A DNA stretch of 40,572 nucleotides from Saprospiraceae bacterium. Lineage in GTDB: Bacteria; Bacteroidota; Bacteroidia; Chitinophagales; Saprospiraceae. The stretch is taken from NCBI GenBank assembly GCA_022841745.1, contig JALHQW010000067.1, positions 1 to 40,572 of the forward strand, written 5' to 3'. The first letter of the stretch is position 1. Each line of letters begins with the position of its first letter. Under the pieces are notes generated by a model, which had not been told where the DNA came from, ran no database searches, and saw only the letters and a program-made list of their open reading frames with translations. Position numbers and translations under genes: made by a program. Below, piece by piece: positions 1,701 to 32,531 of the stretch.

Positions 1701-1778
1701 TTAAGGATTGAAGGATTGAGGGATTGAAGGATTGAAGGATTAAGGCTCCACTTCAATCCTTCAATCCTTCAATCCTTA
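1701..1778. repeat. Inverted pair of octamer tandem repeats (AAGGATTG)n
   Basis: The left arm (1701-1745) is about five consecutive copies of an 8-bp unit AAGGATTG, with variants AGGGATTG and AAGGATTA. The right arm (1751-1778) is the reverse complement, just over three copies of CAATCCTT. The arms are separated by only a few bases, so a long stem with register freedom can form. It begins 3 bp upstream of the aldo/keto reductase start codon, so it would lie in that gene's 5' leader or in an intercistronic spacer after the AraC gene. The same right-arm sequence occurs alone at 8744-8773. Confidence 0.85.
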
Positions 1779-1861
1779 TATTAGAAAGAATATCTGCCGC
1801 AAAAATGGAAAGATTTCGGAACTGCAACAATTTATCCTTGGCTAATGGATCTGCTCATCAG

Positions 1862-1896
1862 AAGTCAGGCGGTGACTTGAAGTCACCGCCTGACTT
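1862..1896. repeat. Perfect 17-bp palindrome, REP-like (copy 1)
   Basis: Two perfect 17-bp arms (1862-1878 and 1880-1896) are separated by a single G; in practice a stem of about 15 bp with a small CTTGAAG-type loop. The core is GGCGGTGACTT/AAGTCACCGCC. A related palindrome at 27997-28031 differs at several positions but keeps pairing. It lies in the gap between the AraC gene and the aldo/keto reductase and has no poly-T tail on either strand, so a simple intrinsic terminator is not the obvious reading. Confidence 0.85.
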
Positions 1897-1907
1897 GGGC
1901 AGCTTTC

Positions 1908-1944
1908 AAACTTAATCGCAAAATACAAAAACTTAACGCAAAAT
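1908..1944. promoter_or_regulatory. Direct repeat with about 21-bp phasing, candidate AraC-type operator
   Basis: AAACTTAATCGCAAAAT (1908-1924) is repeated as AAACTTAACGCAAAAT (1929-1944); the CTTAA cores are 21 bp apart and the CGCAAAAT cores 20 bp apart. AraC-family proteins typically bind two direct half-sites spaced by about two helical turns. The repeat lies just downstream of the AraC gene and upstream of the aldo/keto reductase gene. Binding is inference only. Confidence 0.35.
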
Positions 1945-1984
1945 GACAAATGGATCGGGTCAATTCAGCATTCATGTCTCGAAT

Positions 1985-2827
1985 TCAATAATTTTCGGAA
2001 ACCCTGGTTTCAAAGGTTTGCTTGAGTACCTCCAACAATCGGTTATCCTGCTTGAAAAACTGTTTGGGGGTCATTCCAGTAAAAGCCCTGAAATTATGTA
2101 CCAAATGAGCTTGGTCAAAAAAGCCACTGTTGTAGCCCAATTCCGTCAAGGATGGGGATGGCTTTTGACCCTGCAAATAAACCAAACTATTGAACCTCAA
2201 TATATTGGCCAAAATCTTTGGACTTAGCCCAACGGCTTCCTGAAATCGTTTTTCAAGGGAGCTTTTGCTGACGCAAAGTTGTTCGAGCAGGCTTGAGATG
2301 CGGATATTGCCTTCATTCCTGACGATGATTTGCATGGCATTTTTGACAAGTTCGTCAGGTGGTGCGGCATCTTTAAGTCGCTCCAGTAGGAAGGCTTCAA
2401 GGCACCTTATGCGTTCTTGAAAATCCGCAGCCTCCCACAGTCGCTCCCCAAGTCCCATTATGTACTCGTTCAATTCAAGTCCATGTATTATAAATGGGGG
2501 TGAAAGATCCGACATAGATACCCGAAAGAATGGCGCCATTCCATACGGTTTGAACCTTGCGCCCATGACCCTGATTGGTGCGGCTTGGGAGATGAGCACA
2601 CTTTCCCTTCCTTGGTGAGGTAAGGTGCAGCGTCCATATCGCTTAGTTTCGGTAGGATTGCTGCATATTGCCCTTGTGTATTCGGGCCCAAAATTGAAAA
2701 CGAGCGAGGCAGAACCATCCGGCAAGAACAGTTCCTTTTCCAAAGTATGGTCAGTGCTAAGTATCCAATAGCATTCAAAATAATCCCTGAGTGCAACACA
2801 GGGAATTACCTCTTCATAAAATATCAT
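1985..2827 (-). CDS. AraC-family transcriptional regulator with N-terminal DUF6597 domain
   Basis: 280 residues. The N-terminal half (about 1-155) carries hallmarks of the DUF6597 effector domain: YFECYWIL, LPDGSASLVFNFGP and GARFKPYGMAPFF. The C-terminal half is an AraC/XylS DNA-binding domain with two helix-turn-helix motifs: ISSLLEQLCVSKSSLEKRFQ and the family signature around GYNSGFFDQAHLVHNFRAFTGMTPKQF. It probably responds to a small molecule or redox signal, but the effector is unknown. Its nearest downstream gene on the same strand is the aldo/keto reductase, the most likely target along with itself. The start at 2827 gives a normal family N-terminus. Confidence 0.9.
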   Translation of the reverse strand: MIFYEEVIPCVALRDYFECYWILSTDHTLEKELFLPDGSASLVFNFGPEYTRAICSNPTETKRYGRCTLPHQGRESVLISQAAPIRVMGARFKPYGMAPFFRVSMSDLSPPFIIHGLELNEYIMGLGERLWEAADFQERIRCLEAFLLERLKDAAPPDELVKNAMQIIVRNEGNIRISSLLEQLCVSKSSLEKRFQEAVGLSPKILANILRFNSLVYLQGQKPSPSLTELGYNSGFFDQAHLVHNFRAFTGMTPKQFFKQDNRLLEVLKQTFETRVSENY

Positions 2828-3417
2828 AACAGTCGGGATTTCCAGGAATCCCTCGGCTCGAACGGTGCAGAGATAGGGCTAATGGACAATAAGAAATTGT
2901 AAAAAAGACGAAAGTTCAATAATTAATGCCAATTTGTCGCATAATTCGCAAACCAAGGCCCCAAAAATTTCAGCCTCCACCATTAAACAGCAAGGCTTCT
3001 AAAAATTTCCTCTTTTTTACAATTTTCGGCAACCCAACAGCACAACCTTTGCCTCGTTGCTTGGAAAGTCCTGCAACATTGGCATGCCTTAAAGGGCATG
3101 CAGGAATAAAAAGATTTTTTTTTATACTAATTCATTTTTTAGTTGTCGCGGGTAACTGCGGCAACCCTTAGCACCTCAGCCACGTTCGGAGGATACCGAG
3201 CGCTACTAAGCCGAGCGAAATTGAAAAAAAATTACCTGCCTTGTGAGCAGCCTTTTGAAACAAGCAATGTCTGTGTATAAAGAAATCACTTTTAGTTTGG
3301 GCTTATCCCAACCAAAATGGACGGCAAATGACCGTCTATGTTTTTAGGAAATTCACCGACTGTCATCCTTCAACCCATTTGGGAAAAGGAAACTAAAACT
3401 TAGCGATGCTGGTGTTG

Positions 3418-3444
3418 GCATAGCATAGAATGTATATGCTATGC
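3418..3444. promoter_or_regulatory. Perfect 10-bp hairpin in the susC upstream region
   Basis: GCATAGCATA (3418-3427) pairs perfectly with TATGCTATGC (3435-3444) across a 7-nt loop GAATGTA. It is A/T-rich with no T-run, so it is more likely a protein-binding palindrome or an RNA leader element than a terminator. It lies 363 bp before the SusC-like start. Confidence 0.5.
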
Positions 3445-3672
3445 TGGATTTAACTATTAAATGAATCACTCGGCTTGACATAAAAATCACCAGCGCTTTT
3501 TAAGTTTTCAACCATATGCCGAAGATGGGTTACCTGTCGGGGATTCCAATTTTTGCTATTAAGGAACGTGCTTTCCAACGATTGGTCGTTGGCATTGCCA
3601 TACTGGCTTATGGTCAAACTGTTGGAATGCACGTTCCATTCTCCGCCTTTTTTCTTTCAACCAAGCCTATAT

Positions 3673-3688
3673 TGACCTAAAAAGGTCA
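3673..3688. promoter_or_regulatory. Palindrome TGACCT-N4-AGGTCA upstream of susC
   Basis: A perfect 6-bp inverted repeat spaced by AAAA, with an additional half-site AAAGGTCA about 20 bp downstream (near 3702-3709). It lies 118 bp before the SusC-like start codon. Such symmetric half-sites plus a phased third copy are typical of a dimeric regulator site. No regulator gene is adjacent, so the binding protein is unknown. Confidence 0.4.
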
Positions 3689-3806
3689 TATAACAACATT
3701 CAAAGGTCATTCTCATGCCAACGGCATTGGTATTGGGCGGCTATGCCGTAACCAAATGCCAAGGCCGTTTAATGGCATATTTTCTTACTAATTCAAATTT
3801 TGACGT

Positions 3807-6800
3807 ATGAAAAAAACGCTTCTAATGCTATTGATGGCGATTGGTTGCATCGCTTTGGTGCAGGCGCAACGAACCATCAAGGGCAATGTCACAGACAGTG
3901 GAGGTGAACCGCTGATTGGAGCCAGTGTATTGCTCAAAGGCACAGCAACTGGAACCGTAACCGATGTGGACGGAAGTTTTGAGCTGAGTGTTCCTTCTGG
4001 TGAAGGCAATACGCTCGAAATCAGTTTCACTGGATACACAACACAGGAAATCCCCATTGGGGTCTCTAATTCCTTGACCGTGGCACTCGAAGAGTCCTCT
4101 CAATTGCTGAGCGAGGTCATGGTGACCGCCTTGGGCTTTGAGACCAAGCGCTCAAAAGTCGGGGTTGCTTCGTCAACGGTGGATGGCGGGGCACTGAGTC
4201 GTTCTGGCGAGGTGGGCCTTTTGAACAGCCTTGCAGGGAAGTCAGCGGGGCTGCAGGTAATCTCTTCGAGTGGTGAACCAGGGGCTGGTGCCAGTATCCG
4301 CATCCGGGGTGCTACGAGCATAACCGGCAGCGTGCAACCGCTCATCGTGGTGGATGGCGTTCCTATTTACAATGACAGCTATTATGGCCAAGGATTCGGC
4401 GGGGAAGTAACCACTAGTGGTGGCAGCCTCGGTTCTGGTGGTGGCGTCACCCAACAGAGCCGCCTGAACGACCTCAACCCAGAGGACATCGAGAGCGTGG
4501 AGGTGCTTCGGGGCGCATCCGCTGCTGCCGTATGGGGTTCGAGGGCAGCGAACGGCGTACTCGTTATTAAGACCAAAAAAGGAAAATACAAGGCTTCTAA
4601 AGATTGGACAGTTTCCGTCAATTCGTCCGTGGCGTTTGACGAACTTAACCGGGAAGTACCGCTCCAGAAAAAATATGGCAGCGGCCGTGGCCAGATTTAT
4701 CGGTTTAACCCACCCGGTGGCCAAAGCTGGGGTGACAAATTAGCCGACAGGCCCGGTGGCGAAGACGATTTCATCACAGAAGGTGAGCCTGGGTATTTGG
4801 GCAAATTCGTTTCCGACCAGTCGGGCAATACTTATTATGCCATTGCCGATGGCAATGCAGACAACGTGCATGGCGGGAAAAATTCACAAACGGTCAATGA
4901 TGTGTACGATTACCTTTTCCAGACAGGTCAAACTTGGTCGCACTCACTTGGCGTGAGCCGAGCAACGCAGACTGGCAACGTTTACTTCAGTATCGCCCAG
5001 CTCAACCAGGATGGCATCATTGCAAGTGGCAGCAGCTACGACCGCACGACGGCCCGCCTGAACGCAAGCCAACGCTTTGGGAAAATAACCGTGGAAGGCA
5101 ATGCAGGCTATACTTATTCCATTGCTGAGCGTGCCCAGATGGGCAGCAACCTGAACGGCCTCTTCCTTGGTGGCCTGCGTGAACCGATTGACTTCAATTC
5201 CCGTGACTTCGAAGGCACCTATACGAATGCAGAAGGGAAGTCGTTTCCTGGCAGGCATAGGGCGTACCGCAACCCCCTCGGCGCTAATGCCAACTCAATT
5301 TACAATAATCCTGTGTACACCATTGAGCGGGTCGCCAGCGACAATATCGTAAACAGGTTCATAGGCAAAGGTGAGATTCGGTATGAGCCGCTATCCTGGT
5401 TGAACTTTACCGCTCGTACCGGGCTGGATACTTACACCGACGAGCGTTCAGATTTTTTCCCATTCTATTCAGCTGGGGAGAACAATGGTGGCCGCTTCAC
5501 CAAAGAAACCATCACCCGCAAGCAGGTCAACTTCGACCTTATCGGACGGGCATTTTTCAACCTGACGAGCGACATCAAACTCAATGCCCTGCTTGGTATG
5601 GGCATGAACGAAAGCAGGCTCGATGACCACGGTGCCACTTCACGGTCTTTCGTGAACCCGTTCTCGCCACCACAATTGCCCAATGGGCTGGTAGTGCCCT
5701 TTAACCAGTTTGCGAAGGAGCGCAGCTCTGGCATCTATTCTACTTTGGGCTTTGAACTGTATGACCAGGTATTTGTCAACTTGAGCGCAAGGCAGGACTA
5801 CCTCAGCACTTTGCCAGAAGGTAAGAACGACGTGTTTTACCCGGCAGCCGACGTGTCCTGGCAGTTCAGCAAGTTGATTCGGGACAAAGCGACCTTCTCT
5901 TCTGGTAGGGTTCGCTTTGGTTACGGCCAAGTAGGCCGTGGGCCAGCACCCTACCTTACCTCACAGGTTTTCTTCCAGCCAACTTCTGCCAATATCGGTT
6001 GGGCTGAAGGCTGGGGTGCAGGCGTGGACGTGTCGGCCTACGGAGGCGGCTTTGCTTTGAACACGACGGCTGCCAATCCGAATCTCAAGCCTGAAATCAA
6101 AACAGAAATGGAGGCAGGGCTTGACCTTGGTTTCCTCAATGACCGAATCAGCTTTGCAACAACCGTTTACAAAAACAACACAAAAGACCTCATTATTCAG
6201 GTGAACACGCCGCAGTCCTCAGGTTTTGTTACGCAGATTACAAACGCTGCTGAAATTGAAAACAAGGGTTTTGAGCTTGAGTGGAACTTCGTACCCGTCC
6301 GGGTAAAAGATTTCGAATGGAACATTTTTGGAAATTTCAGCCTTAACCGCAACAAAGTGATAGACATGGCGGGCACCAACAATATCCTGCTATCTGGCTT
6401 CGCAGGTACTTCCTCCAATGCAGTAGTGGGTGAGCAGTTGGGCGTTATCTTCGGTTCCGCTTGGGAACGGGATGCAAACAACAATATCGTGCTGGATGAA
6501 AATGGCTTCCCAGTACAATCAAACACCTTTAAAGTTTTGGGAGACCCTAATCCTGACTATCGCCTTGGGGCTGGAACGGGCCTGAACTACAAAGGCCTGA
6601 GACTCAATGTATTGTTCGATGTAAGCAAAGGTGGCGAGTATTGGAATGGCACTCGTGGTGCACTTGCATTCTTTGGCAGGGCCAAATACACCGACGTCGA
6701 GACAACCCTTAGTCAGCAGCAGGCCGAGGGTCTGCTCATTTACGATGGCCGCACCGTTGCCGATGCATACCCTCACCTGAAGAACGACGATGGCTCCTAC

Positions 6801-7163
6801 AATGTGCGAGGCGAAATCAAGGACTTTGGTGCTGGAAACGTTTTTATCGAGGAAAACTTCTACCGGATTGGAACAGGCAGCGGCTTTACTGGCCCGGCCG
6901 AGCAGTTCATGGAGGACGCCTCATGGGTACGCCTGCGTGAATTGACCCTGTCCTACACCCTTGGCAAAAACTTGCTGAAGATGAACTGGCTTGAAAATGC
7001 TACGCTCACTTTCACGGGCCGCAACCTCTTCCTCTGGACGGACTACCAAGGCAATGACCCAGACACAAACCTGACTGGCTCTGGCTTGAACGGTATCGGT
7101 TTGGACTATTTCCAGAACCCTTCCGCAAGGACGTATAAATTGGCGCTGAGTCTGACTTTTTGA
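3807..7163 (+). CDS. SusC/RagA-family TonB-linked outer-membrane transporter
   Basis: 1118 residues, normal length for SusC. Signal peptide 1-21 (MKKTLLMLLMAIGCIALVQA). A carboxypeptidase-regulatory-like domain covers about 22-105 (IKGNVTDSGGEPLIGASVLLKG, then TVTDVDGSFELSVPSG), followed by the TonB plug with IRIRGATSITGSVQPLIVVDG and the SusC signature VEVLRGASAAAVWGSRAANG at about 230-250. The rest is a TonB-dependent beta-barrel with TonB_dep_Rec features such as GRNLFLWTDYQG near the C-terminus and a terminal LALSLTF. It imports a bulky substrate across the outer membrane with the SusD-like lipoprotein encoded 102 bp downstream. No glycoside hydrolase or peptidase lies in the operon, so the substrate (glycan or peptide) cannot be assigned. 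Confidence 0.96.
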   Translation: MKKTLLMLLMAIGCIALVQAQRTIKGNVTDSGGEPLIGASVLLKGTATGTVTDVDGSFELSVPSGEGNTLEISFTGYTTQEIPIGVSNSLTVALEESSQLLSEVMVTALGFETKRSKVGVASSTVDGGALSRSGEVGLLNSLAGKSAGLQVISSSGEPGAGASIRIRGATSITGSVQPLIVVDGVPIYNDSYYGQGFGGEVTTSGGSLGSGGGVTQQSRLNDLNPEDIESVEVLRGASAAAVWGSRAANGVLVIKTKKGKYKASKDWTVSVNSSVAFDELNREVPLQKKYGSGRGQIYRFNPPGGQSWGDKLADRPGGEDDFITEGEPGYLGKFVSDQSGNTYYAIADGNADNVHGGKNSQTVNDVYDYLFQTGQTWSHSLGVSRATQTGNVYFSIAQLNQDGIIASGSSYDRTTARLNASQRFGKITVEGNAGYTYSIAERAQMGSNLNGLFLGGLREPIDFNSRDFEGTYTNAEGKSFPGRHRAYRNPLGANANSIYNNPVYTIERVASDNIVNRFIGKGEIRYEPLSWLNFTARTGLDTYTDERSDFFPFYSAGENNGGRFTKETITRKQVNFDLIGRAFFNLTSDIKLNALLGMGMNESRLDDHGATSRSFVNPFSPPQLPNGLVVPFNQFAKERSSGIYSTLGFELYDQVFVNLSARQDYLSTLPEGKNDVFYPAADVSWQFSKLIRDKATFSSGRVRFGYGQVGRGPAPYLTSQVFFQPTSANIGWAEGWGAGVDVSAYGGGFALNTTAANPNLKPEIKTEMEAGLDLGFLNDRISFATTVYKNNTKDLIIQVNTPQSSGFVTQITNAAEIENKGFELEWNFVPVRVKDFEWNIFGNFSLNRNKVIDMAGTNNILLSGFAGTSSNAVVGEQLGVIFGSAWERDANNNIVLDENGFPVQSNTFKVLGDPNPDYRLGAGTGLNYKGLRLNVLFDVSKGGEYWNGTRGALAFFGRAKYTDVETTLSQQQAEGLLIYDGRTVADAYPHLKNDDGSYNVRGEIKDFGAGNVFIEENFYRIGTGSGFTGPAEQFMEDASWVRLRELTLSYTLGKNLLKMNWLENATLTFTGRNLFLWTDYQGNDPDTNLTGSGLNGIGLDYFQNPSARTYKLALSLTF

Positions 7164-7166
7164 TGG

Positions 7167-7193
7167 GTGAATCGTGATTCGTGATTCGTGATT
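7167..7193. repeat. Heptamer tandem repeat (CGTGATT)n between susC and susD
   Basis: GTGAATCGTGATTCGTGATT followed by CGTGATT gives about 3.5 copies of a 7-bp unit starting just 3 bp after the susC stop codon. GAATC and GATTC inside the repeat can form small stems. There is no second inverted arm. In a polycistronic message it could influence the SusC:SusD ratio. Confidence 0.7.
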
Positions 7194-7265
7194 TGGGTTT
7201 GAGGCAGGGTGACGAAAGCACTCTCCTTGGAAACATTTCAATTTTACAAAATTCATTAAGCAATT

Positions 7266-8642
7266 ATGAAAATGAAATTCAAAATATTCTTCTTGGCCAC
7301 TTTCTTGGTGGCATTGGGGCAATTCGGGTGCAAAGACTTCGTGGAAGGCATCAACGAAGACCCTAACAACCCTGCCGACGCCCCTATTGGCGCTGTGCTG
7401 ACCGCAGCCCAAGCAACGGCCATCATCTCACACGAGGGCGAAGTAGCCCGACTCGTCAGCATGTGGTCACGCCAGTTTACTGGCTCCGACAGGCAGTACT
7501 CAGGATTCGAGGTCTATACCATCAATTCTGGTGATTTCGATTGGGACATGTTTTACCTCATCGTCACAAACGCCAATATCGTGATAGATAAGGCAGCCGT
7601 CACCAACGACAAACTGGCCAGTGGCATAGCCAAGGTGCTGAAAGCACAGTCAATGGGCACGGTAGCTTCTCTTTGGGGTGATATCCCCTTCTCAGAGGCC
7701 AACCAATTTCCAAAGATAGAAGACCCAAAATTTGATAGCCAAGCCAGTGTTTACGAAGGTGTTCAAGCTATACTCGACGATGCCATCGCCGATTTAAGCG
7801 GTGGCCCCACCAGCAACGACATTAACGACCTGTTCCTTGGAGGCGATGCCGCAAAATGGGTGGCCGTGGCCAATACGCTAAAAGCCCGTTACTACCTCCA
7901 TGTTGGAAACTATACCGCAGCTGCCGCAGCTGCCGCCAATGGCGTCATCTCGGCAGATGGCGATATGAATGCCCCTCATACAGGCGGGAATTACTTGCTC
8001 GATATGAATATCTGGGCTTCTTTCGGCCTTGTGGACAGGGCTGGCTACATGACTGCCAATTCGGCTGTGCTGCCCACCATGTTGGACAATGCAGCTGCTG
8101 GCTACCGTGGAAACGCCAAAACAGACGAGTCAGCAAGGCTCGGGTTCCTCTATACCGGAGGAGCAGATAGCTACGACCTAAACTACGAAGGCATGTGGGC
8201 ACCGACAGCTCCTTACCCATTGGTTACGGCAATTGAAACGCACCTTATCCTTGCCGAGGCGAACCTGCGTTCCGATGACCTCGACGAGGCACTCACCCAC
8301 CTGAACCACACCCGTGCGTTGTTGGTGGCACAGTTCCCTGCAGGCAAGTATGAGGATTATGAATTGGCTGATTTTGATGAAGGGGGCATAGCTGGCATTG
8401 CTGGAAAGTCCCGTAAGGAGGCGCTCCTGCATGAAATCATAGAAGAGAAATATGCCAGCTTAGTGGGCCAGATAGAGGTTTTTAATGACCTCCGCCGAAC
8501 TGACAACTTGCTGCAATTGCCAGCCGCCTCGGATGGAGGCATACCTGAGCGGCTCCTTATTCCCCAGGTTGAGATTGACGCCAACTTGAATACACCAAGC
8601 CCTATCCCTGGGCTGATGGAACCCACTCCGATTAACCAATAA
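7266..8642 (+). CDS. SusD/RagB-family nutrient-binding lipoprotein (SusD-like_2 type)
   Basis: 458 residues. Lipoprotein signal with the lipobox Cys22 (ALGQFGC), then FVEGINEDPNNPADAP, the opening motif of the SusD-like_2 subgroup. TPR-like helices follow (VLKAQSMGTVASLWGDIPFSEANQF, WVAVANTLKARYYLHVG). The C-terminal part has ILAEANLRSDDLDEALTHLNHTR and EIIEEKYASLVGQIEVFNDLRR, typical of the family. It forms the lid over the SusC barrel and captures substrate at the cell surface. It is cotranscribed with the SusC-like gene and followed by a strong hairpin terminator. The final residues (SPIPGLMEPTPINQ) are short but not unusual. Confidence 0.95.
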   Translation: MKMKFKIFFLATFLVALGQFGCKDFVEGINEDPNNPADAPIGAVLTAAQATAIISHEGEVARLVSMWSRQFTGSDRQYSGFEVYTINSGDFDWDMFYLIVTNANIVIDKAAVTNDKLASGIAKVLKAQSMGTVASLWGDIPFSEANQFPKIEDPKFDSQASVYEGVQAILDDAIADLSGGPTSNDINDLFLGGDAAKWVAVANTLKARYYLHVGNYTAAAAAAANGVISADGDMNAPHTGGNYLLDMNIWASFGLVDRAGYMTANSAVLPTMLDNAAAGYRGNAKTDESARLGFLYTGGADSYDLNYEGMWAPTAPYPLVTAIETHLILAEANLRSDDLDEALTHLNHTRALLVAQFPAGKYEDYELADFDEGGIAGIAGKSRKEALLHEIIEEKYASLVGQIEVFNDLRRTDNLLQLPAASDGGIPERLLIPQVEIDANLNTPSPIPGLMEPTPINQ

Positions 8643-8677
8643 TTGGAGTGGGAGTTTTAAAAACGGGTATAATTTGA

Positions 8678-8712
8678 AAGTGTCGGCGTGACTTTGAGTT
8701 ACGCCGACACTT
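8678..8712. terminator. Bidirectional hairpin terminator between susD and thioredoxin-like gene
   Basis: A perfect 12-bp stem AAGTGTCGGCGT (8678-8689) / ACGCCGACACTT (8701-8712) with an 11-nt loop, located between two convergent genes. The flanks are A-rich on the left (AATTTGAA) and pyrimidine-rich on the right (CCCTTT), so it can serve both strands, although no long T-run is present. Confidence 0.7.
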
Positions 8713-8743
8713 CCCTTTACCTCCCAACCTATAGGCAACGGAC

Positions 8744-8773
8744 TCCTTCAATCCTTCAATCCTTCAATCCTTA
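8744..8773. repeat. Single-arm octamer repeat (CAATCCTT)n overlapping a stop codon
   Basis: Three copies of CAATCCTT, the same unit as the right arm at 1751-1778. The last bases TTA (8771-8773) are the stop codon of the thioredoxin-like gene on the minus strand. No inverted partner arm is seen nearby. Confidence 0.8.
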
Positions 8774-9358
8774 CAAAAGCAAAGGTTGCAGCATCGCTCC
8801 CAATTCCTCTGCTGATAGCTCACGAGGGTAAAATTGCTTAATGCCATCCTTGGATTTGATGAAAACGGCGGGCACATTGCCTTGCCAGCCGCCGGAGATA
8901 TCGTTGCGCCATTTTCCATCACTGTCTTTGACCTGCAGCACCTCGGCTGCCATGCCCGATTTGCGCAGCACAAGGTTCACACCATTGGCCATTTTCTCCT
9001 CGTCGAGGTTGACGGAAAGGAGGTGCAGCTTGGCCTCGCCACTTTTGTTTTGCAGTTCCTGCAATGCTTGCTGCATTTGGATGCACTTGAGACAGTCTGT
9101 TTTCCAGAAATTGACCACGAGCAGGCCAGTGGTGTCAGACTTGATTTTTGCCAATAAATCGGCGGGCGATACAAGCGTGGCAGACTTGCCGCTGGCGGCT
9201 GCCAATTCGGCGTTTTCAGCATCGGTGGTGTTGCCGGATTGCTCCATATTATGTGGCAAAGCGCCCTCGTGCTCGGAGGAGCTGGAGGTGTCATTGCCGC
9301 AGGCAGCAAAAGCCAGTACAGCAAATATGGATAGGATTATTGCAAAGCGATGTGCCAT
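8771..9358 (-). CDS. Thioredoxin-fold lipoprotein (TlpA/DsbE-like)
   Basis: 195 residues. A lipoprotein signal peptide ends in AFAAC with Cys20 as the likely lipidated residue, followed by a low-complexity Ser/Asp/Glu/Asn linker to about residue 60. The thioredoxin-like domain (about 62-195) contains LLVVNFWKTDCLKCIQMQQ, placing the redox pair at Cys89 and Cys92 (CLKC instead of the usual CGPC/CxPC). The cis-Pro segment is GNVPAVFIKSKDG. It probably acts in the periplasm or is anchored to a membrane as a disulfide reductase or in thiol redox control. Missing the Pro of CxPC may shift its redox potential. It is transcribed alone and diverges from the DUF3810 gene. Confidence 0.8.
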   Translation of the reverse strand: MAHRFAIILSIFAVLAFAACGNDTSSSSEHEGALPHNMEQSGNTTDAENAELAAASGKSATLVSPADLLAKIKSDTTGLLVVNFWKTDCLKCIQMQQALQELQNKSGEAKLHLLSVNLDEEKMANGVNLVLRKSGMAAEVLQVKDSDGKWRNDISGGWQGNVPAVFIKSKDGIKQFYPRELSAEELGAMLQPLLL

Positions 9359-12973: not shown

Positions 12974-12977
12974 CCCC

Positions 12978-13043
12978 GTACACCGGAACCCCAGTTCCGG
13001 TGGTAGTAATTCAACATTCACCGGAACTGGGGTTCCGGTGTAC
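12978..13043. repeat. Perfect 25-bp inverted repeat with nested palindromes
   Basis: The left arm 12978-13002 and right arm 13019-13043 are exact reverse complements across a 16-nt loop. Each arm also contains its own palindrome (CACCGGAAC, four-base spacer, GTTCCGGTG), so one strand can fold as one long stem or as two small hairpins. It starts 4 bp after the symporter stop codon and ends 8 bp before the next start codon. There is no T-run, so it is not a standard terminator. Confidence 0.92.
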
Positions 13044-13051
13044 GAAAACGC

Positions 13052-13260: not shown

Positions 13261-13282
13261 TTTTCTTTCAAAAAAGCATTTG

Positions 13283-13945
13283 ATGGCTACGACCACCTTC
13301 ACTATCCAAGAAAAAGAGGAAATCCGCAAGCTCTTTGGCCTGCCATTGGAGCAACTCGACCTTGACGCTTTCCGCAAGGCACACCGGGAATTGCGCAGCA
13401 AATACCATCCCGACAATTTCGAACACCTTGACAACGAGGCAGTTAAGGAAATGGCCACGGAAAAATTCCAAGGTATAGAAGCGTTGGCAAACCGGGTCGA
13501 GGCATACCTTTCTGGCGACAAGCCTACTGCTACGACCTACGACAGCAATGCGGAAGACTTCCTTCGTCCCGATGCCGTCTTCGCTGGCAAGCGGCTGAAA
13601 ATCGAAATCCTGACAGGCGACAAAGACCTGAAATACCACCTGTTCGGCACCTTTTACCGCTGGCTGCAAATGGGCGATACCTTCAAAATCCCGAACACGG
13701 GTGGCAGCATCGTCATTGACGAGGATTACAGCGGTCGGCGAATCGGCTTTCAGGAGACCGTTCGGATGTACCTGACCTTTGACGAAGCCGCCAGCATTGA
13801 AGACATGGTGAACTGGCTTTTCGGTAAAATCCAAGGCCGAGCCGATAAGCTGCTCATAGCAGGCGAAATTGTTGAAATCAACGCTGAAAAAATCATCCGA
13901 GCTATCAAGAAGGAGACCATCTTGCGCATTGGTGCAGGGGCATGA
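13283..13945 (+). CDS. J-domain-like (DnaJ N-terminal) protein with unknown C-terminal domain
   Basis: 220 residues from ATG 13283. The N-terminal about 75 residues look like a J domain: a helix around FRKAHRELRSKYHPD with the HPD tripeptide at 42-44, followed by a helix with EMATEKFQGIEALANRVEAYL. The first helix is shorter and differs from canonical DnaJ. The C-terminal part (about 90-220) is of mixed alpha/beta character and I do not recognise it; it lacks the G/F region, zinc fingers and CTD of DnaJ. It may recruit DnaK to a specific client. The gene follows the small membrane protein after a weak terminator. Confidence 0.7.
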   Translation: MATTTFTIQEKEEIRKLFGLPLEQLDLDAFRKAHRELRSKYHPDNFEHLDNEAVKEMATEKFQGIEALANRVEAYLSGDKPTATTYDSNAEDFLRPDAVFAGKRLKIEILTGDKDLKYHLFGTFYRWLQMGDTFKIPNTGGSIVIDEDYSGRRIGFQETVRMYLTFDEAASIEDMVNWLFGKIQGRADKLLIAGEIVEINAEKIIRAIKKETILRIGAGA

Positions 13946-13948
13946 AGT

Positions 13949-14028
13949 TGGAAATTGAGAAATTGAAGAAATTAGGAAATTAGATGCTACGGCCAAAATT
14001 TCCCAATTTCTAATTTCCCAATTTCCAA
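13949..14028. repeat. Inverted pair of GAAATT-type tandem repeats
   Basis: The left arm 13949-13983 consists of four GAAATT-containing units (GGAAATTGAGAAATTGAAG and onward); the right arm 13997-14028 consists of AATTTCCC/AATTTCT units and is the near-complement, with a few mismatches and one-base register shifts. The element begins 4 bp after the J-domain gene stop codon and ends 24 bp before the creatininase start. The left arm is purine-rich and the right arm pyrimidine-rich. Confidence 0.85.
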
Positions 14029-14052
14029 TACCTTGCCCCAAAAAATTAGCCG

Positions 14053-14838
14053 ATGCAAGTTCCACACCCACCACGTCCGTACATCCTCGCCGAAACCAAC
14101 TGGAAGGCCGTTCAGGAAACGAAATTCGAAGTGGCCATCCTGCCTTGGGGCGCTACCGAGGCGCATAATTACCACCTACCTTACGCCACCGACAATTATC
14201 AAAACGAGGCCATCACTGAAGCAGCCGCTAAGCTGGCTTGGGAGCGGGGCGCAAAGGTTGTTGTGCTACCCAACATCCCGTTTGGGGTGCAGACGGGGCA
14301 ACTTGACATTGCCCTTTGCATGAACATGCTTCCCTCCACGCAATTGGCCATCCTGAAAGATGTCTGCGACGTGCTGGTGCGGGCGGGCATTCCCAAATTG
14401 GTCATTTTCAATGGCCACGGCGCCAATGAGTTCCGTGCGATGGTTCGGGAGGTGTCTTTTTTCTATCCGCAACTTTTTACCTGTGCTTTGAACTGGTTCA
14501 AAGTGGAGCCAAAAAAGGGGTATTTCACCCACTTGGATGGCGACCACGCCGACGAGTTGGAGACGAGTATCATGCTCGAAATCCAGCCGAACCTGGTGAC
14601 GACATTGAGCGAGGCAGGCGATGGTTTTACCAAAAAATGGAAGTTCAAAGGTGCCCAAGAAGGTTGGGTAACGGTGCAACGGGATTGGACACAAGTGACG
14701 AAGGACACCGGCGCTGGCAATCCTTATGAATCAACCGTGGAGAAAGGCCGACGCTACTTGGAAGTCGTAGTTGGCAAGGTCGCCGATTTCTTTGTTGACT
14801 TGGCTGAGACGCCGAGGAGTGGGTTTTATGAGGGATGA
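14053..14838 (+). CDS. Creatininase-family amidohydrolase
   Basis: 261 residues, typical family length. The metal-binding motif appears as PWGATEAHNYHLPYATD (Glu36, His38, Asp47), close to the usual G-S-x-E-Q-H-G-x-H-L-P-x-x-T-D, with GHGANEFRAM (His122) and HADELETSIML (Glu170) completing the site. The family hydrolyses cyclic amides, such as creatinine, or acts on formamides and peptides as in MftE. The Q-to-A and G-to-N changes in the first motif suggest a substrate other than creatinine. The stop codon lies inside the tandem-repeat arm that starts at 14829, so the last residues (FYEG) are encoded by repeat DNA. Confidence 0.9.
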   Translation: MQVPHPPRPYILAETNWKAVQETKFEVAILPWGATEAHNYHLPYATDNYQNEAITEAAAKLAWERGAKVVVLPNIPFGVQTGQLDIALCMNMLPSTQLAILKDVCDVLVRAGIPKLVIFNGHGANEFRAMVREVSFFYPQLFTCALNWFKVEPKKGYFTHLDGDHADELETSIMLEIQPNLVTTLSEAGDGFTKKWKFKGAQEGWVTVQRDWTQVTKDTGAGNPYESTVEKGRRYLEVVVGKVADFFVDLAETPRSGFYEG

Positions 14839-14902
14839 GGGATGAGGAACGAGGGACGAATTTGGTAAGTGTTCATCCCTCATTCCTACTCCCTCATCCC
14901 TA
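14829..14902. repeat. Inverted heptamer repeats carrying the stop codons of two convergent genes
   Basis: The left arm (14829-14858) contains GAGGGATGAGGGATGAGG followed by diverged units; the right arm (14874-14902) is the approximate reverse complement (CATCCCTCATTCC, ACTCCCTCATCCCTA). The creatininase stop TGA (14836-14838) lies in the left arm and the stop of the anti-sigma-like gene (14900-14902, minus strand) lies in the right arm. It could act as a bidirectional transcription end. Confidence 0.85.
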
Positions 14903-15256
14903 ATTTCTGACCGGATTCGCATAATACGCTGGAAGGGCTTTCCGCTCCTTGACCAGTAGGCAATATGGGTTGCAGCCTTCCGTGTTCACGAGTTCCTGGA
15001 GCATGGATGGACGAGGCTCGTTGCCGATGACAACAGTGGGTGCGGTGTTCATGTTCGACACGAAAAACACCCCTGCTATAAGGATGAAAAGGGCTGCCAT
15101 GGCCGTTACCCAACGCATGAGTGCTACCTTGCCAGTTTGTTGCTTTTGACCATCAAGTCTGTGCTCCAAACGCTGCCAAGCACGGGGCGTTGGCTGCACG
15201 GTGAGCCGCTCGCTCCCTTCCTGAAATGCTGTGAATATGTCTTTACGAGAGTTCAT
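14900..15256 (-). CDS. Single-pass membrane protein, possible anti-sigma factor
   Basis: 118 residues. Cytoplasmic N-terminal part about 1-45 (MNSRKDIFTAFQEGSERLTV, RAWQRLEHRLDGQ), one membrane helix about 47-66 (MRWVTAMAALFILIAGVFFV), and a short extracytoplasmic tail with two Cys (EGCNPYCLL). It lies 95 bp downstream of an ECF sigma factor gene on the same strand, and the layout of cytoplasmic domain, single helix and periplasmic domain is that of membrane anti-sigma factors. I see no zinc-binding HxxxCxxC motif. The pairing is inferred from position and topology. Confidence 0.65.
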   Translation of the reverse strand: MNSRKDIFTAFQEGSERLTVQPTPRAWQRLEHRLDGQKQQTGKVALMRWVTAMAALFILIAGVFFVSNMNTAPTVVIGNEPRPSMLQELVNTEGCNPYCLLVKERKALPAYYANPVRN

Positions 15257-15351
15257 TTTTTTTTGATTTTGGACTATTTCGATTGCTAAAAACTTGTCTG
15301 AAATTTGCTAACTACCGTGAACCTGACTGCCCACTGCCAACTGACGAACTG

Positions 15352-15888
15352 CTAACTCAAACGCCCCAGCCGTTTCTTCACCAATTCCTCCATTCGGCTC
15401 TTCGCTAGAATGAGTTGGGACTTGGAAGTATTGATGCTGATACCCAGTTCTTCCGCAATTTCCCGGTGCTTGTATCCTTCCACCACGTAGAGGTTGAAGA
15501 CGGTACGGTAGCCGGGCGGCAGTTCATCGAGCAGGCCGAGGATTTCCTCCGATTCGAGGCGCTCCACAATCGTCGGTTCCTCGCCGTGGTCAATGTTCGG
15601 GTTTATTTCCTCGGCATGTTTGAACGGGTTGCCTTTGCGTAGGTGCATCAGGCATTCGTTAATCATGATTCGGCGCACCCAGCCCTCAAAGCTGCCCTCG
15701 AAATTGTACATTTCCAATTTCGTCAAAACCTTGAAAAAACCCTCGACCATCACCTCCTCCGCCTCACTGGTGTCGTGGATATAGCGCCTGCACACCCCCA
15801 GCATCACGGGCGCATGGCGCTCGTAGAGCATTTTTTGTGCCCTTCTATCCTGTCGTTTGCAGGCGGCTATGAGGTCTAGTTCGGTCAA
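15352..15888 (-). CDS. ECF-family RNA polymerase sigma factor
   Basis: 178 residues. Region 2 spans about 10-75: KRQDRRAQKMLYERHAPVML, RRYIHDTSEAEEVMVEGFFKV and FEGWVRRIMINECL. Region 4 spans about 120-170: LLDELPPGYRTVFNLYVVEG, then YKHREIAEELGISINTSKSQ and LILAKSRMEELVKKRLG, which contains the -35-recognition helix-turn-helix. The spacing is that of ECF sigma factors of Bacteroidota. It is followed by the membrane protein described above, likely its regulator, and it diverges from the VOC gene across a 28-bp inverted repeat. It carries its own TAACTTTG -7 element 34 bp upstream. Confidence 0.95.
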   Translation of the reverse strand: MTELDLIAACKRQDRRAQKMLYERHAPVMLGVCRRYIHDTSEAEEVMVEGFFKVLTKLEMYNFEGSFEGWVRRIMINECLMHLRKGNPFKHAEEINPNIDHGEEPTIVERLESEEILGLLDELPPGYRTVFNLYVVEGYKHREIAEELGISINTSKSQLILAKSRMEELVKKRLGRLS

Positions 15889-15900
15889 GCGTTTTTAAGT

Positions 15901-16064
15901 AAAAAGTACAAAGTACAAAGTACAAAGTTAGGGGACTGGGCACTTGCACTTGGCGTTGTTGCTTCAAAGATGCAGGAATGCTCGAATTTGGTGGAAGCAA
16001 ATCCTCGAAACCTTTAAATTCAACCCCGGCACCCCCACTTTGTACTTTGTACTTTGTACTTTTT
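15901..16064. repeat. Perfect 28-bp inverted repeats of AAAGTAC heptamers in a divergent promoter region
   Basis: The left arm 15901-15928 and right arm 16037-16064 are exact reverse complements over 28 bp, each consisting of three to four 7-bp AAAGTAC units. They are separated by 108 bp. The arms lie in front of two divergent genes, the ECF sigma factor and the VOC protein, and each arm is next to or overlaps a -7 promoter element. The arrangement could hold paired operator sites or form a large cruciform. Confidence 0.92.
15923..15930 (-). promoter_or_regulatory. -7 promoter element TAACTTTG for the ECF sigma gene
   Basis: On the minus strand TAACTTTG exactly matches TAnnTTTG and lies 34 bp upstream of the sigma-factor start at 15888. 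It overlaps the left AAAGTAC arm. No exact -33 TTTG at the usual distance was found. Confidence 0.45.
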
Positions 16065-16080
16065 CCTTTTGCTATCTTTG
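16053..16080 (+). promoter_or_regulatory. Promoter of the VOC gene (TATCTTTG)
   Basis: TATCTTTG (16073-16080) exactly matches the Bacteroidota -7 element; a TTTG at 16053-16056, within the right AAAGTAC arm, lies 16 bp upstream, slightly closer than the usual 19-21. The start codon follows 15 bp after the -7 element. Confidence 0.6.
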
Positions 16081-16095
16081 CCAAACTTTTCAGCC

Positions 16096-16494: not shown

Positions 16495-16542
16495 TTGCTT
16501 TTGATTGTTGAATTGTCAAATTGCTTTATTGTTGTTTGGGCA

Positions 16543-16572
16543 TTGCAATTAACGATTTTGCCCTTATCTTTG
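16543..16572 (+). promoter_or_regulatory. Promoter of the toxin-antitoxin operon (TTG-N19-TATCTTTG)
   Basis: TTG at 16543-16545 and TATCTTTG at 16565-16572 are separated by 19 bp, the classical Bacteroidota spacing. The antitoxin ATG is at 16598, 25 bp downstream of the -7 element. Confidence 0.7.
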
Positions 16573-16597
16573 AATCCTTTAAATCATTATAAATCAG

Positions 16598-18662: not shown

Positions 18663-18694
18663 GGCCCGTTTTTTACCAAAATCGTTAAACTACC

Positions 18695-19333
18695 ATGTTC
18701 AAAAGCATTCGAATTATTGCGACTATCCTATTGATTTTCAACCTGCTTGCCTGTAAAAATGAATCGGCAAACGTGACAGGTGAGCCATTGCCTTCAGGCA
18801 CTGAACAAGCTACCAACGTCACAGGTGGCACGGGCAATATCAGCTTTATTTCTAAGGAGAAAATCATCTTGAACGACAACACGGAAATCGTTTTACCAAA
18901 GGAGACCGATACATCCAGCATCGTTTTCTATTTCGTAACGCCAGCCGAAAATGCGGAAGGCCAATCTTCTCTTTCAGAAAACGGCCTGTTCCGCAGCCAA
19001 ATCCTGACGACCGTAACGGCAAAGGCAGGACTGGCAATGGTGTATGCCGAGGGCAATTCTGCTTTGCAGACCGTCACCCAACTGGCAAGGGCCAACTACT
19101 CGGAACTGAACGTCTTCAAGGCCGAAAAAGCGGAGGATACCTTGAAGGAGTTGGTCAAAAAGTTTAAGGCCAGAAAAGTAATGGTCTGCGCTTCGGCACC
19201 CGTGGTGAAGCAGATGATAGGACAGTTGACCGGAAAGCCAGCACCCACCGTGCCAGCAACGGAGAACAACAATATCTATGTCATCATTTCCAACGGCATA
19301 GGCGATGGCGAGGTGAAGATTATCAATTACTGA
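18695..19333 (+). CDS. Lipoprotein with degenerate histidine-phosphatase fold
   Basis: 212 residues. Lipobox LLAC with Cys20, then a linker to about residue 55. From 70 to 212 the order of segments parallels Bacteroidota histidine phosphatases: VFYFVTPAENA (77-87) in place of LVRHAEKA, SLSENGLFRSQILTTV for the Ls.xGxxRA helix, AMVYAEGNSALQTVTQLA for the VysS...RTxQTA block, VMVCASAPVVKQMIGQLTG for the VVGHSNTVP block and IYVIISNG near the end. All catalytic residues of the family are replaced (Arg-His to Thr82-Pro83, second Arg absent, GHS His to Ala166). It is thus likely a catalytically dead, envelope-attached protein. A strong terminator follows. Confidence 0.65.
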   Translation: MFKSIRIIATILLIFNLLACKNESANVTGEPLPSGTEQATNVTGGTGNISFISKEKIILNDNTEIVLPKETDTSSIVFYFVTPAENAEGQSSLSENGLFRSQILTTVTAKAGLAMVYAEGNSALQTVTQLARANYSELNVFKAEKAEDTLKELVKKFKARKVMVCASAPVVKQMIGQLTGKPAPTVPATENNNIYVIISNGIGDGEVKIINY

Positions 19334-19357: not shown

Positions 19358-19397
19358 AAAGCGGTGCGGCTACCTATTGGCCGTACCGCTTTTTTTG
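19358..19397 (+). terminator. Intrinsic terminator after the pseudo-phosphatase lipoprotein
   Basis: AAAGCGGTGCGGC (19358-19370) pairs with GCCGTACCGCTTT (19380-19392) with one G-T wobble and a 9-nt loop, directly followed by TTTT. This is the clearest rho-independent terminator in the window and ends the lysA-lipoprotein unit. Confidence 0.88.
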
Positions 19398-27996: not shown

Positions 27997-28031
27997 AACT
28001 CAGGCGGCGACTTGAAGTCGCCGCTTGAGTT
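27997..28031. repeat. 17-bp palindrome, REP-like (copy 2)
   Basis: Arms 27997-28013 and 28015-28031 pair over 17 bp with one G-T wobble around a central G. The sequence is homologous to the palindrome at 1862-1896: the core GGCGGCGACTTGAAGTCGCCGC replaces GGCGGTGACTTGAAGTCACCGC, and the outer pair also changed on both sides. It lies in the gap between the T9SS protein and the first M1 peptidase (convergent genes), 4 bp from the latter's stop codon. Confidence 0.85.
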
Positions 28032-31193: not shown

Positions 31194-31234
31194 GATTCCT
31201 TTTTTTTACAAACTTACAATTTTTTGAAATAAGG

Positions 31235-31720
31235 TTAAAAACTAAACTCCCCCTCCAAATCCCCCGCATTCAACAGCTCCGTCTCCCGCCCCTTGCCCGG
31301 CAAAATAGCATAAACCATGTTCGTCTGCTCCTTGAATTTCTCGATGAGCAGGGAGTTCTTCACGTTTATCTTTTTTATTTTTTGGGTAAAAACGGGCGTG
31401 GAAAACGTCGCCAGCACCTGGTCATTTTTCTGGCGAATGGACTGGAAGCTGAGCGCCTGTTTGCTGCCATTCACGTTTACTTCAAGGTGCTTTACCACGT
31501 AGTCGCCAATGGTCTTTCCAGCGGGTAGCGGAGCCATTGGGTCGCCCGTAAGGGTGGCAGTCAGGTCGTCAATGAAGAGATAGACCTTCACCTCAAAAGC
31601 CTTCTTCTCTTCCGTATAAACGACCTCCGTCACGCTCATTTTGAAGTCGTGGTCAGCGTTGCCCACTTGTTCCTGTGGGAAGGCGAAGAAGAATGGGAAT
31701 ATAAATTTGATTATTAGCAT
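31235..31720 (-). CDS. DUF6702-family envelope protein
   Basis: 161 residues. A short hydrophobic leader (MLIIKFIFPFFFAFPQ) could be a signal peptide. The mature part opens with HDFKMSVTEVVYTEEKKAFEVKVYLFIDDL, the pattern of DUF6702, and contains several predicted beta strands. Function is unknown. It is followed downstream by the HNH pair and preceded by a HupE/UreJ-type protein. In many Bacteroidota, DUF6702 genes sit next to HupE/UreJ and M1 peptidase genes, as here. I give this neighbourhood from general knowledge, not from a search. Confidence 0.75.
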   Translation of the reverse strand: MLIIKFIFPFFFAFPQEQVGNADHDFKMSVTEVVYTEEKKAFEVKVYLFIDDLTATLTGDPMAPLPAGKTIGDYVVKHLEVNVNGSKQALSFQSIRQKNDQVLATFSTPVFTQKIKKINVKNSLLIEKFKEQTNMVYAILPGKGRETELLNAGDLEGEFSF

Positions 31721-31731
31721 TTTGCGATTAA

Positions 31732-31841
31732 CCCCTGACCACTAAAGGGAAACCTAAGCGGGGAAGTTTGTAGGTTAATTTGATGATTTCTTTAAGTTCC
31801 ATTACCTGTGCGTCTGTAGGTTCCCCTTCAGGGGTCAGGGG
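31732..31841. repeat. Inverted 25-bp arms (22 of 25 matching)
   Basis: The left arm 31732-31756 (CCCCTGACCACTAAAGGGAA and five more bases) pairs with the right arm 31817-31841 at 22 of 25 positions, with a 60-nt spacer. The left arm starts 11 bp upstream of the DUF6702 start codon and the right arm ends 4 bp short of the HupE/UreJ stop. A second GGGTCAGGGG unit follows the right arm, so the right side is partly tandem. Confidence 0.8.
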
Positions 31842-31845
31842 CGGG

Positions 31846-32439
31846 TCAGGGGCTGAACACATTTTGCAAAATAAGCACCAGCGCCCCGCCGCCTCCCAGC
31901 CCAGAAACGTAGAGGTTCCAGTCCCGGTGGGCAAGTTTCAGCCATTGCGCCAGCAAAAAATACAAGCCCAAAAACACGCCCACTATCATCAACTGCCCTA
32001 GCTCAATGCCCACGTTGAAAGCAAAAAGCGGCAGTACGATATTCCCCGCCTCGCCCATTAAGGCACTGAAATAATTGGCGAATCCCATGCCGTGTATCAA
32101 GCCAAAGAACAGTGCCAATAAGTAGTTCGTTGAGACAGAGCGGGAAAAAGTGCCCGCCTCCGGCTTGTTTACCGTTATATTGTGCAGGCTCGTCAGCACA
32201 ATGGTCACTGGAATCAGGAACTCCACCAAATCACTAGGAACTTGTAGGATACGCAGCCCAGCCAGCACCAGCGTCAGCGAGTGGCCGACGGTGAAGGCAG
32301 TAATAAGAACCAGCAGCTTCCGCCAGTCCGACCAACGATAAACGGCGCAGAGCGTGACCACGAACAGCAGGTGGTCAAATGCCTTCGGGTCGGCGATGTG
32401 GTGGAAACCGAGATTAAGGAAACTTAGGAATTCGGACAT
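31846..32439 (-). CDS. HupE/UreJ-family membrane protein
   Basis: 197 residues from ATG 32439; the upstream frame extension is encoded by the inverted repeat and is unlikely to be translated. Six predicted membrane helices. Family motifs: GFHHIADPKAFDHLLFVVTL near the N-terminus, AFTVGHSLTLVLAG, GLIHGMGFANYF and FNVGIELGQL, which are the conserved His/Asp-containing motifs of HupE/UreJ, a family including nickel/cobalt uptake proteins. No hydrogenase or urease genes are present, so its role here is probably another metal or an accessory to the peptidases. Gene order is M1, HupE, DUF6702, all minus strand. Confidence 0.9.
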   Translation of the reverse strand: MSEFLSFLNLGFHHIADPKAFDHLLFVVTLCAVYRWSDWRKLLVLITAFTVGHSLTLVLAGLRILQVPSDLVEFLIPVTIVLTSLHNITVNKPEAGTFSRSVSTNYLLALFFGLIHGMGFANYFSALMGEAGNIVLPLFAFNVGIELGQLMIVGVFLGLYFLLAQWLKLAHRDWNLYVSGLGGGGALVLILQNVFSP

Positions 32440-32450
32440 TGGTTTGATTT

Positions 32451-32531
32451 GTTTGAATAGTTCGATGGGTTTGAATTGCTTGAGGTGCTTTGTACCCGAC
32501 AAACAATTCAAACCCATCGAACTATTCAAAC
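32451..32531. repeat. Perfect 28-bp inverted repeat between HupE and M1 peptidase B
   Basis: Arms 32451-32478 and 32504-32531 are exact reverse complements separated by 25 nt. The left arm contains repeated GTTTGA words. The final base of the right arm is the first genomic base of the M1 peptidase B stop codon (minus strand), so the arm directly abuts the gene's end. It may function as a transcription-end or mRNA-stabilising hairpin. Confidence 0.92.

Follow-up and report, generated by a model that had tools for sequence, protein, structure and literature searches.

The gaps between genes in a 40,572-nucleotide stretch of bacterial DNA (the window, which is contig 67 of an 8.43 Mb Saprospiraceae genome, Bacteroidota) carry pairs of inverted arms, and the largest recognisable class of these hairpins has arms built of tandem words of 7 or 8 bp. 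The word arms are concentrated at gene borders, face each other as inverted pairs and share one orientation; several of the words are dispersed through the genome, and at orthologous gaps one word is exchanged for another. Read on either strand, the 5' arm is poor in C and the 3' arm is poor in G, and the hairpin usually lies close to a stop codon. New here are two features: gaps tend to keep their hairpin among members of the genus while the arms are mostly respelled, and the strand that points outward from the gene is richer in G than in C across many different words. We regard it as possible, if a little short of probable, that the class represents a gene-border hairpin whose inverted duplicate arms are renewed together and are filled from a shared pool of words.

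Retention of hairpins and exchange of words

Together with three other 20 kb stretches of the same genome (hereafter the host genome), the window was compared with the matching regions of six relatives of the same genus (G001, G004, G007, G008, G011 and G012). Each relative is represented by a species-level genome, in several cases a fragmented one, so that the individual steps of word exchange are not visible. Gene borders, here and below, come from a simple codon-usage gene caller rather than from annotation, and start positions are approximate. Five of 120 groups of orthologous gaps were dropped and 115 kept; the statistics omit the host and G011 hairpins of the gap at 32440-32530 (group 20), which the gene caller overran.

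When the same gaps are followed from genome to genome, the place of a hairpin tends to persist and its arm sequence is mostly replaced. Between tandem genes, 67 pairs of orthologous gaps are co-occupied, compared with a permuted mean of 35 (maximum 58; none of 2000 permutations reaches 67); between divergent genes there are none, with one expected. Arm similarity in orthologous hairpins of all kinds is below 0.45 in 74 of 99 pairs and at least 0.6 in 19, the 95% point for non-orthologous arms being 0.41. For periodic arms, 30 of the 39 orthologous pairs fall below 0.45 and six are at 0.6 or above, and every one of the 13 groups with at least two such hairpins contains an unrelated pair. Two of the six hairpin pairs that the host shares with its closest relative, G011, are similar. 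For instance, the HupE/UreJ and M1-peptidase genes are separated by a gap with paired arms in all five comparable genomes, written with GTTTGAATA/GTTCGATGG in the host, with GGTTGATA in G011 and G004, with GTTTAGA in G008 and with GGTGATT in G001. Similarly, in the gap beside an aldo/keto reductase gene the arms are of the GGATTGAA type in the host, G011, G004 and G008 (the last with an N run), are spelled AGTTTTG in G001 and with a GTATTGG-like word in G012, and are missing in G007.

A common orientation at gene borders

Orientation was surveyed over 1.22 Mb from seven genomes, the host and the six relatives; the stretches follow the synteny of the window and the element-rich stretches of the host, and their densities are biased upward and differ from genome averages. 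G outnumbers C in the left arm of 71 of the 74 periodic hairpins. Once five arrays of 180 in which G equals C are set aside, 175 arrays within 40 bp of a border remain, more distant ones not being counted; the outward strand is G-rich in 160 of these, and an outward G-rich majority is found in every one of the seven genomes. The two arrays of a pair do not count as independent, nor do orthologous gaps; with one vote per gap and orthologues merged, 82 of 96 gaps follow the rule wholly, six are mixed and eight run against it. Outward base counts in the arrays up to 40 bp from a border (A 1617, T 1616, G 1905, C 390) place A level with T and G far above C, so that the rule concerns G against C and not purines. 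A basis in G-quadruplexes was set aside, as the rule persists in 33 of 37 unequal arrays whose words lack GG; GGG is present in 52 of the 175.

The rule extends to arrays without a partner. Unpaired arrays nearest a start codon are C-rich on the sense strand in 33 of 36 cases, and those nearest a stop codon are G-rich on the sense strand in 33 of 40. When only non-overlapping arrays 1-40 bp from a border are counted, paired arrays stand 73 to 6 for the rule and single arrays 40 to 5. Gap edges free of arrays lean weakly in the same sense, with outward G:C of 3787:2310 at starts and 3291:2759 at stops.

Placement separates the two forms. Periodic hairpins overlap the upstream stop codon or sit within 15 bp of it in 58 of 70 cases. 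Paired arrays occupy 71 of 658 tandem or convergent gaps but only 6 of 153 divergent ones (Fisher p 0.009), whereas gaps with single arrays only number 55 of 658 and 16 of 153, respectively (p 0.43); N runs, gaps over 500 bp (over 400 bp in the three-shuffle test below) and gaps at the ends of stretches are excluded from such counts. Divergent gaps are thus short of pairs and not of singles, a contrast which suggests that the hairpin is of importance at the level of the transcript.

Abundance and classes of inverted pairs

Nine of the arm pairs that the initial annotation had listed in the window are recovered by repeat finders as well as by folding, with RNA fold z values on the plus strand that range from -3.1 (31732-31841) to -12.2 (32448-32534). 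A further proposed pair, at 16487-17405, is weak: its gapped pairing has an alignment score of 24, against a best of 23 in 300 shuffles. The single arrays at 7167-7193 and 8744-8772 have fold z values near zero, no stronger than shuffles.

Pairs were also counted in 427 kb of the host genome, namely the window and 20 other stretches (L-numbered below) picked partly for word matches. With arms of at least 15 bp and loops of at most 200, gaps hold 74 pairs and coding or mixed sequence another 18, compared with none in gaps and one in genes in the control, for which each gap was given one dinucleotide shuffle; the arms thus exceed what chance would give. One clustered repeat in L039 accounts for 18 of the 74, and 56 remain. 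This cluster, at 13641-18043, is a regular series of ACGTTTACTAAACTT...AAGTTTAGTAAACGT palindromes, often 58-59 bp apart; clustered inverted pairs of the GTAACACGGTCTGCCAGACCGTGCTT type are seen in L036 at 17131-18788. Three shuffles of each of 413 gaps from the host and its relatives gave two hits in all.

The listed gaps, first treated as one class, prove to be a mixture of word-arm hairpins, short tight hairpins and hairpins with palindromic arms that resemble repetitive extragenic palindromic (REP) elements. Of 793 gaps in the seven genomes, 80 contain a hairpin with periodic arms, 36 a terminator-like one, 12 one with palindromic arms and 70 one of some other type, and the same gap may be counted under several classes. 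An internal 6-bp stem within the arm is found in none of the 67 periodic hairpins with arms of at least 18 bp (shuffle mean 0.8), compared with 16 of 82 non-periodic ones (shuffle mean 6.5, maximum 10). Exact tandem arrays in gaps have period 7 (81 arrays), 8 (52), 14 (64) or 15 (11), the last two being largely multiples; other periods are scarce (6, one array; 9, six; 10, two; 11, three), and shuffled gaps contain five arrays overall. The coding part, which is larger than the gaps, holds 29 arrays of period 7 and four of period 8. In a small sample from outside the genus (20 stretches from 16 genomes, about 315 kb), two of the 15 gap hairpins are periodic (G031 and G036). Long pairs with palindromic arms (GGGTTATCAAACCC, CAAGTTTGCAACTTG) lie near the Y1-transposase genes of L097, L098 and L101, and similar arms occur elsewhere, for example in L046, L048, L040 and L078.

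Words and their dispersal

The sample contains 57 distinct words, several of which are widely dispersed. The double word AAGGATTGAAGGATTG (16 bases) has 88+76 matches in the host genome and none when read backwards. Among the 59 relatives searched, it is found in 8 of the 13 of the same genus, nine of which match the probe protein, and in 3 of the 46 wider relatives. GGTGATTGGTGATTGG has 36 matches in the host genome and is likewise present in 8 of the 13. In G016, of another genus in the same family, GGTGATTGGTGATTGG has 132 matches, long arrays among them. The reversed control pattern GGTTAGTGGTTAGTGG has 8 matches in G031 and 32 in G047, which indicates that another heptamer word exists in those two genomes. 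Among the matches listed, the elements at 1701, 31732 and 32451 have dozens of counterparts elsewhere in the relatives, and those at 13949 and 14829 have few.

Of 43 GGATTGAA arrays, 28 share one starting phase (AAGGATTG), which suggests the copying of defined units. A few long loops of the GGCAGTT type are alike by eye. Conserved loops were set aside as a property of the class, since the loops and flanks of the GGATTGAA family are by eye mostly unrelated.

The proposal that a shared process acts at gene borders is largely supported, in that gaps keep a hairpin while its arms change and one rule of orientation and spacing spans many words. The accompanying description of the arms as mostly locus-specific is too strong, given that several families are dispersed in the genus, but it retains some truth: clustering of the arms of 177 gap hairpins leaves 96 without a similar arm in the sample, among them those at 13968-14025, 15897-16068 and 27997-28031.

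Terminators and stop codons

As had been noted in the window, the arms lack a poly-T tail: at least six T in the nine downstream bases, in either direction, are found in only one of the 74 periodic hairpins of the seven genomes. The initial annotation set three ordinary terminators apart from the arms. Those at 19358-19392 and 40283-40313 do have the form of ordinary terminators, and the third, at 8678-8712, groups with the short tight hairpins.

Word arms and intrinsic terminators can share a gap. In one convergent group (group 31), the arms of the host and G008 enclose a conserved intrinsic terminator, and word arrays are visible, though unmarked, around the same terminator in G011 and G004; G012 has paired arms without that terminator and G007 has a different one. 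In another (group 87), the arms of G001 and G008 surround a terminator that is common to G004, where short AGTTGGCAGTT/AACTGCCAACT ends are present, and in G012 both the arms and the terminator that they surround are different. Substitution of one for the other, never both together, was set aside, as the counts show no clear exclusion: a periodic hairpin and a terminator occupy the same gap in three tandem cases versus 1.8 expected and in no convergent case versus 2.6 expected.

Of the 74 left arms, 24 have a stop codon in every frame (7.6 expected from base shuffles and 5.9 from dinucleotide shuffles) and 17 have no stop at all (7.7 and 14.3, respectively), the mean number of frames with a stop being 1.68 compared with 1.50 and 1.30. 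A period of 7 or 8 bp alone spreads stop counts to both extremes, and the idea that the words serve as all-frame stops is therefore neither adopted nor discarded.

Possible origin and role

The arms of a pair match through the variants of their units (34/34 at 9993-10072 of L048, 41/42 at 14135-14308 of L105, and 28/28 in another case), and such agreement over 28 to 42 bp makes them look like inverted copies of each other. The arms may arise and be repaired by template switching during replication, with one arm copied off its partner, while slippage would alter the length of the array. New words would enter by copying from other loci, such that the stem persists and its spelling changes. Pairs would persist mainly where a strong transcript hairpin is useful or harmless, that is, past stop codons in tandem and convergent gaps, a hairpin presumably doing harm in a leader and being tolerated or of use past a stop. 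There they may act as intercistronic or 3'-end RNA hairpins, in transcript stability or the control of read-through, unlike classic terminators. That the arms serve as RNA or DNA structures in transcription, as the initial annotation supposed, is plausible. In addition, the combination of many words, one rule of spacing and direction, and exchange at the same gaps argues against any word-specific protein or G-quadruplex.

Several observations weigh against this interpretation. Convergent gaps are co-occupied in 32 pairs versus 29 expected, which is not above expectation, and co-occupancy in general could mirror gaps that tolerate hairpins rather than gaps that need them. Single arrays are equally common between divergent genes and have the same orientation, so that an RNA hairpin is not the whole story. 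In two convergent groups the arms enclose an intrinsic terminator and are thus not needed there for the end of transcription, and the joint counts of hairpins and terminators show no clear avoidance. The asymmetry that template switching might leave, an excess of U-A over A-U, is not seen, A being about equal to T on the 5' side. Finally, more than half of the clustered hairpins have no similar arm in the sample, the loops and flanks of the GGATTGAA family are mostly unrelated, and the route by which words move between loci can only be surmised.

The same data bear on other explanations. Selection at the borders without any function of the hairpin, which we consider rather unlikely, would let words invade neutrally, with a G-poor leader and a C-poor, stop-containing tail fixing their orientation and with pairs as a by-product of one word at both edges. 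This would account for the obedience of single arrays at starts and stops, for the weak bias of array-free edges in the same sense, for the lack of depletion of single arrays between divergent genes, and for the frequency of all-frame stops, although periodicity favours extremes. It sits poorly with arms that match through unit variants, unlike independent expansions, with the left arms that lack any stop, and with divergent gaps that are avoided by pairs and not by singles. Intrinsic terminators, possibly of a T-less type, would explain the location past stop codons, the enrichment in convergent and tandem gaps, and the two groups (5 and 31) whose shared gap is occupied in relatives either by a word hairpin or by an ordinary terminator. 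However, the T tail is almost always missing, ordinary forms coexist beside and within the arms, loops reach 135 nt, and a plain terminator role is further disfavoured by the enclosed terminators and by the single arrays located at start codons; this explanation is highly improbable.

Mobile elements of the REP/RAYT type, that is, REPIN-like units moved by Y1 transposases and repeatedly reinserted in tolerant gaps, are an improbable source of the word class. The genome has nine Y1-transposase matches, with palindromic-arm families near some of the genes (L097, L098 and L101). L097 also has a short GGTTTCA hairpin (the word twice, 14-bp arms) about 650 bp from its Y1 gene and L096 has a CATCTAT-like pair; apart from these two, the families near the eight Y1 loci examined are palindromic or short. 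The common start phase of GGATTGAA arrays is what a defined unit would give, and some gaps are empty in some species, such as that at 12974-13051, which is only 9-13 bp long in G001 and G012. Against such an origin, internal stems are confined to non-periodic arms, the loops of the GGATTGAA family vary and the words are many, so that REP/RAYT elements offer a better fit to the palindromic families than to the word class.

Individual elements of the window

The first element, a tandem-octamer hairpin of the word GGATTGAA at 1702-1778 (27/28 bp arms, loop of 21, z -7.9), lies upstream of the aldo/keto reductase gene (727-1698, minus strand). A single GGATTGAA array occurs at 8744-8772 on the minus strand, beside the stop of the gene at 8771-9358, with its G-rich strand pointing outward from the gene. 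In the six relatives the 8771-9358 gene adjoins the aldo/keto reductase gene at a distance of 71-156 bp, and the arm that matches 8744-8772 sits there in the short gap between them because the intervening 7 kb is absent. In the host, about 7 kb (1699-8770) separates the two genes; it encodes an AraC-type regulator together with a TonB receptor/SusD-like pair and is bounded on each side by a GGATTGAA array. Arrays of this type may be points of entry for gene cargo. A short perfect hairpin of AAGTCAGGCGGTGACTT type follows at 1862-1896 (arms 17/17, loop of 1), with three similar ones in L034. By eye it is also like the hairpin at 27997-28031 (arms 16/17, z -10.0), which lies in a convergent gap and is a singleton. 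Within the same 7 kb, a single array of the heptamer GTGATTC (7167-7193, plus strand) begins 3 bp past the stop of the TonB-dependent receptor gene at 3807-7163, and the short hairpin AAGTGTCGGCGTGACT at 8678-8712 has a loop of 3 and is a singleton in arm clustering.

Two pairs are REP-like. That at 12977-13044 begins 3 bp past a stop codon and has arms CACCGGAAC/GTTCCGGTG that pair perfectly over 26/26 bp, each arm being itself palindromic (z -10.5); G011 carries an unrelated pair in the same gap. That at 31732-31841, of CCCCTGACCCCTAAAGGGGAACC type (arms 22/25, loop of 60), has an internal palindrome, CCCCT/AGGGG, limited to its right arm and weaker than in the former; its family also occurs in the orthologous gap of G008.

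The remaining pairs have word-like arms. The AATTTCC/GGAAATT hairpin at 13937-14039 (82% pairing of 28 bp arms, z -6.6) runs from the stop codon of the gene at 13280-13945 almost to the following gene. The GGGATGA heptamer hairpin at 14828-14904 (85% of 33 bp arms, z -7.1) has convergent genes on both sides and overlaps both stop codons; the orthologous gap has a GGTGATT-type hairpin in G008 and an ordinary terminator in G007, and no pair was detected in G001, G011 or G012. A single array of the GGCAGTT type (15325-15360, minus strand), at the right edge of the 15257-15351 gap, was seen in the sequence and missed by the array counter; G008:C56:34232-34274 is a 93% match to 15323-15365. The AAAGTAC heptamer hairpin at 15897-16068 (arms 31/32, loop of 108, z -9.3) lies in a divergent gap, and no pair was detected in its orthologues in the six relatives. 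Tentative, degenerate GATTGTT-like arms at 16487-17405 flank a cassette at 16598-17328, which consists of a Fic gene with a weakly RelB-like partner upstream. A Fic homologue is present in the orthologous gap of G011, G008 and G001, and the cassette is absent from those of G004, G012 and G007. Finally, the hairpin of GTTTGAATA/GTTCGATGG units at 32448-32534 (33/35 bp arms, period 9 by eye) fills the whole gap from the M1-peptidase stop to the HupE/UreJ start, and matching elements are found at other places in G011 and G007.

Comparison with known systems

A cyanobacterial connection, suggested by heptamer repeats in that phylum, is not borne out for the window. One window protein has its nearest named matches in Saprospiraceae genomes, at 96% and 80% identity, and Pfam identifies SusD-like and TonB-dependent receptor domains, findings which mark the host as a member of the Bacteroidota and no cyanobacterium; a tblastn search with a window protein gave no cyanobacterial plasmid among the matches listed (60 of 1547).

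The closest likeness is to the intergenic tandem heptamers GGGAATC of Xanthomonas and GGGGA(C/T)T of Anabaena, described as of unknown function (Rehm et al. 2015, PMC4692102). In that account their G-rich strand is mostly the non-coding one upstream of genes and the coding one downstream, within 50 bp of the gene, they are under-represented between divergent genes, and they are discussed as G-quadruplexes; the Xanthomonas heptamer forms 70 and 75 inverted pairs in two species, and Anabaena has few. The present arrays share with these their concentration in gaps, with octamers as an extension, and the outward G-rich strand. They differ in having many words of 7 and 8 bp rather than one word family per lineage, in obeying the rule also where the word has no GG, in mostly lacking GGG, and in exchanging words at orthologous gaps. 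It is conceivable, though unlikely, that a strand-directed process acts at borders in distant phyla, laying down outward C-poor arrays and an inverted copy at the other edge, with the hairpin inherited and its spelling replaced from a genome-wide pool. If true, structure, position and orientation would be inherited and spelling would not.

Replacement of words under a kept structure has a counterpart in the P6b stem of the Nostoc trnL(UAA) intron, in which the heptamer classes TDNGATT and NNTGAGT are described as repeatedly swapped (Kaasalainen et al. 2015, PMC4476775). That account concerns one group I intron locus, whereas the present case involves many gene borders and many words and no intron; a tRNA search of the window found none, and Rfam 15 gave no match in it at the gathering score. 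The TAACTGA heptamer, reported near start codons as intergenic direct repeats, also in some Bacteroidetes, is a single word with one inverted case in the main genome studied (MacGregor 2015, PMC4679880).

REPINs are described as extragenic inverted doublets that form hairpins, with palindromic arms, dispersed families and a link to RAYTs (Bertels and Rainey 2011, PMC3116915). The likeness in hairpin formation, location in gaps and dispersal is clear; the periodic arms differ in the absence of an internal stem, and in the window 12977-13044 is REP-like and 31732-31841 less clearly so. DNA uptake sequences also occur in inverted pairs, in which a dominant word is bound by the uptake machinery; the many words found here argue against that analogue. 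Template switching has been proposed to make and repair perfect stems and could skew the bases of the 5' against the 3' side, with U-A over A-U as well as G-C over C-G argued to be possible, in work on rRNA and mammalian microRNA loci (Monttinen and Loytynoja 2022, PMC8794818). The U-A excess discussed in that study is absent here.

Keyword searches of the open-access literature, which are no proof of absence, brought up among the papers listed no earlier account of gene-border hairpins that use many words and swap them at orthologous gaps. The pattern across the genus separates what is conserved (place, direction and pairing) from what is not (sequence), and the origin and role of border repeats thereby become testable by comparison of close strains. 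If stems are indeed inherited while their sequence turns over, covariation tests will need to allow for wholesale replacement. As far as the accounts cited go, border heptamers were earlier known from few bacteria, each lineage having a single word family; G-quadruplexes were considered for them and no function was assigned. Taken together, the word class combines the border placement of the Xanthomonas and Anabaena heptamers with the word replacement of the Nostoc P6b stem, over many borders and many words.

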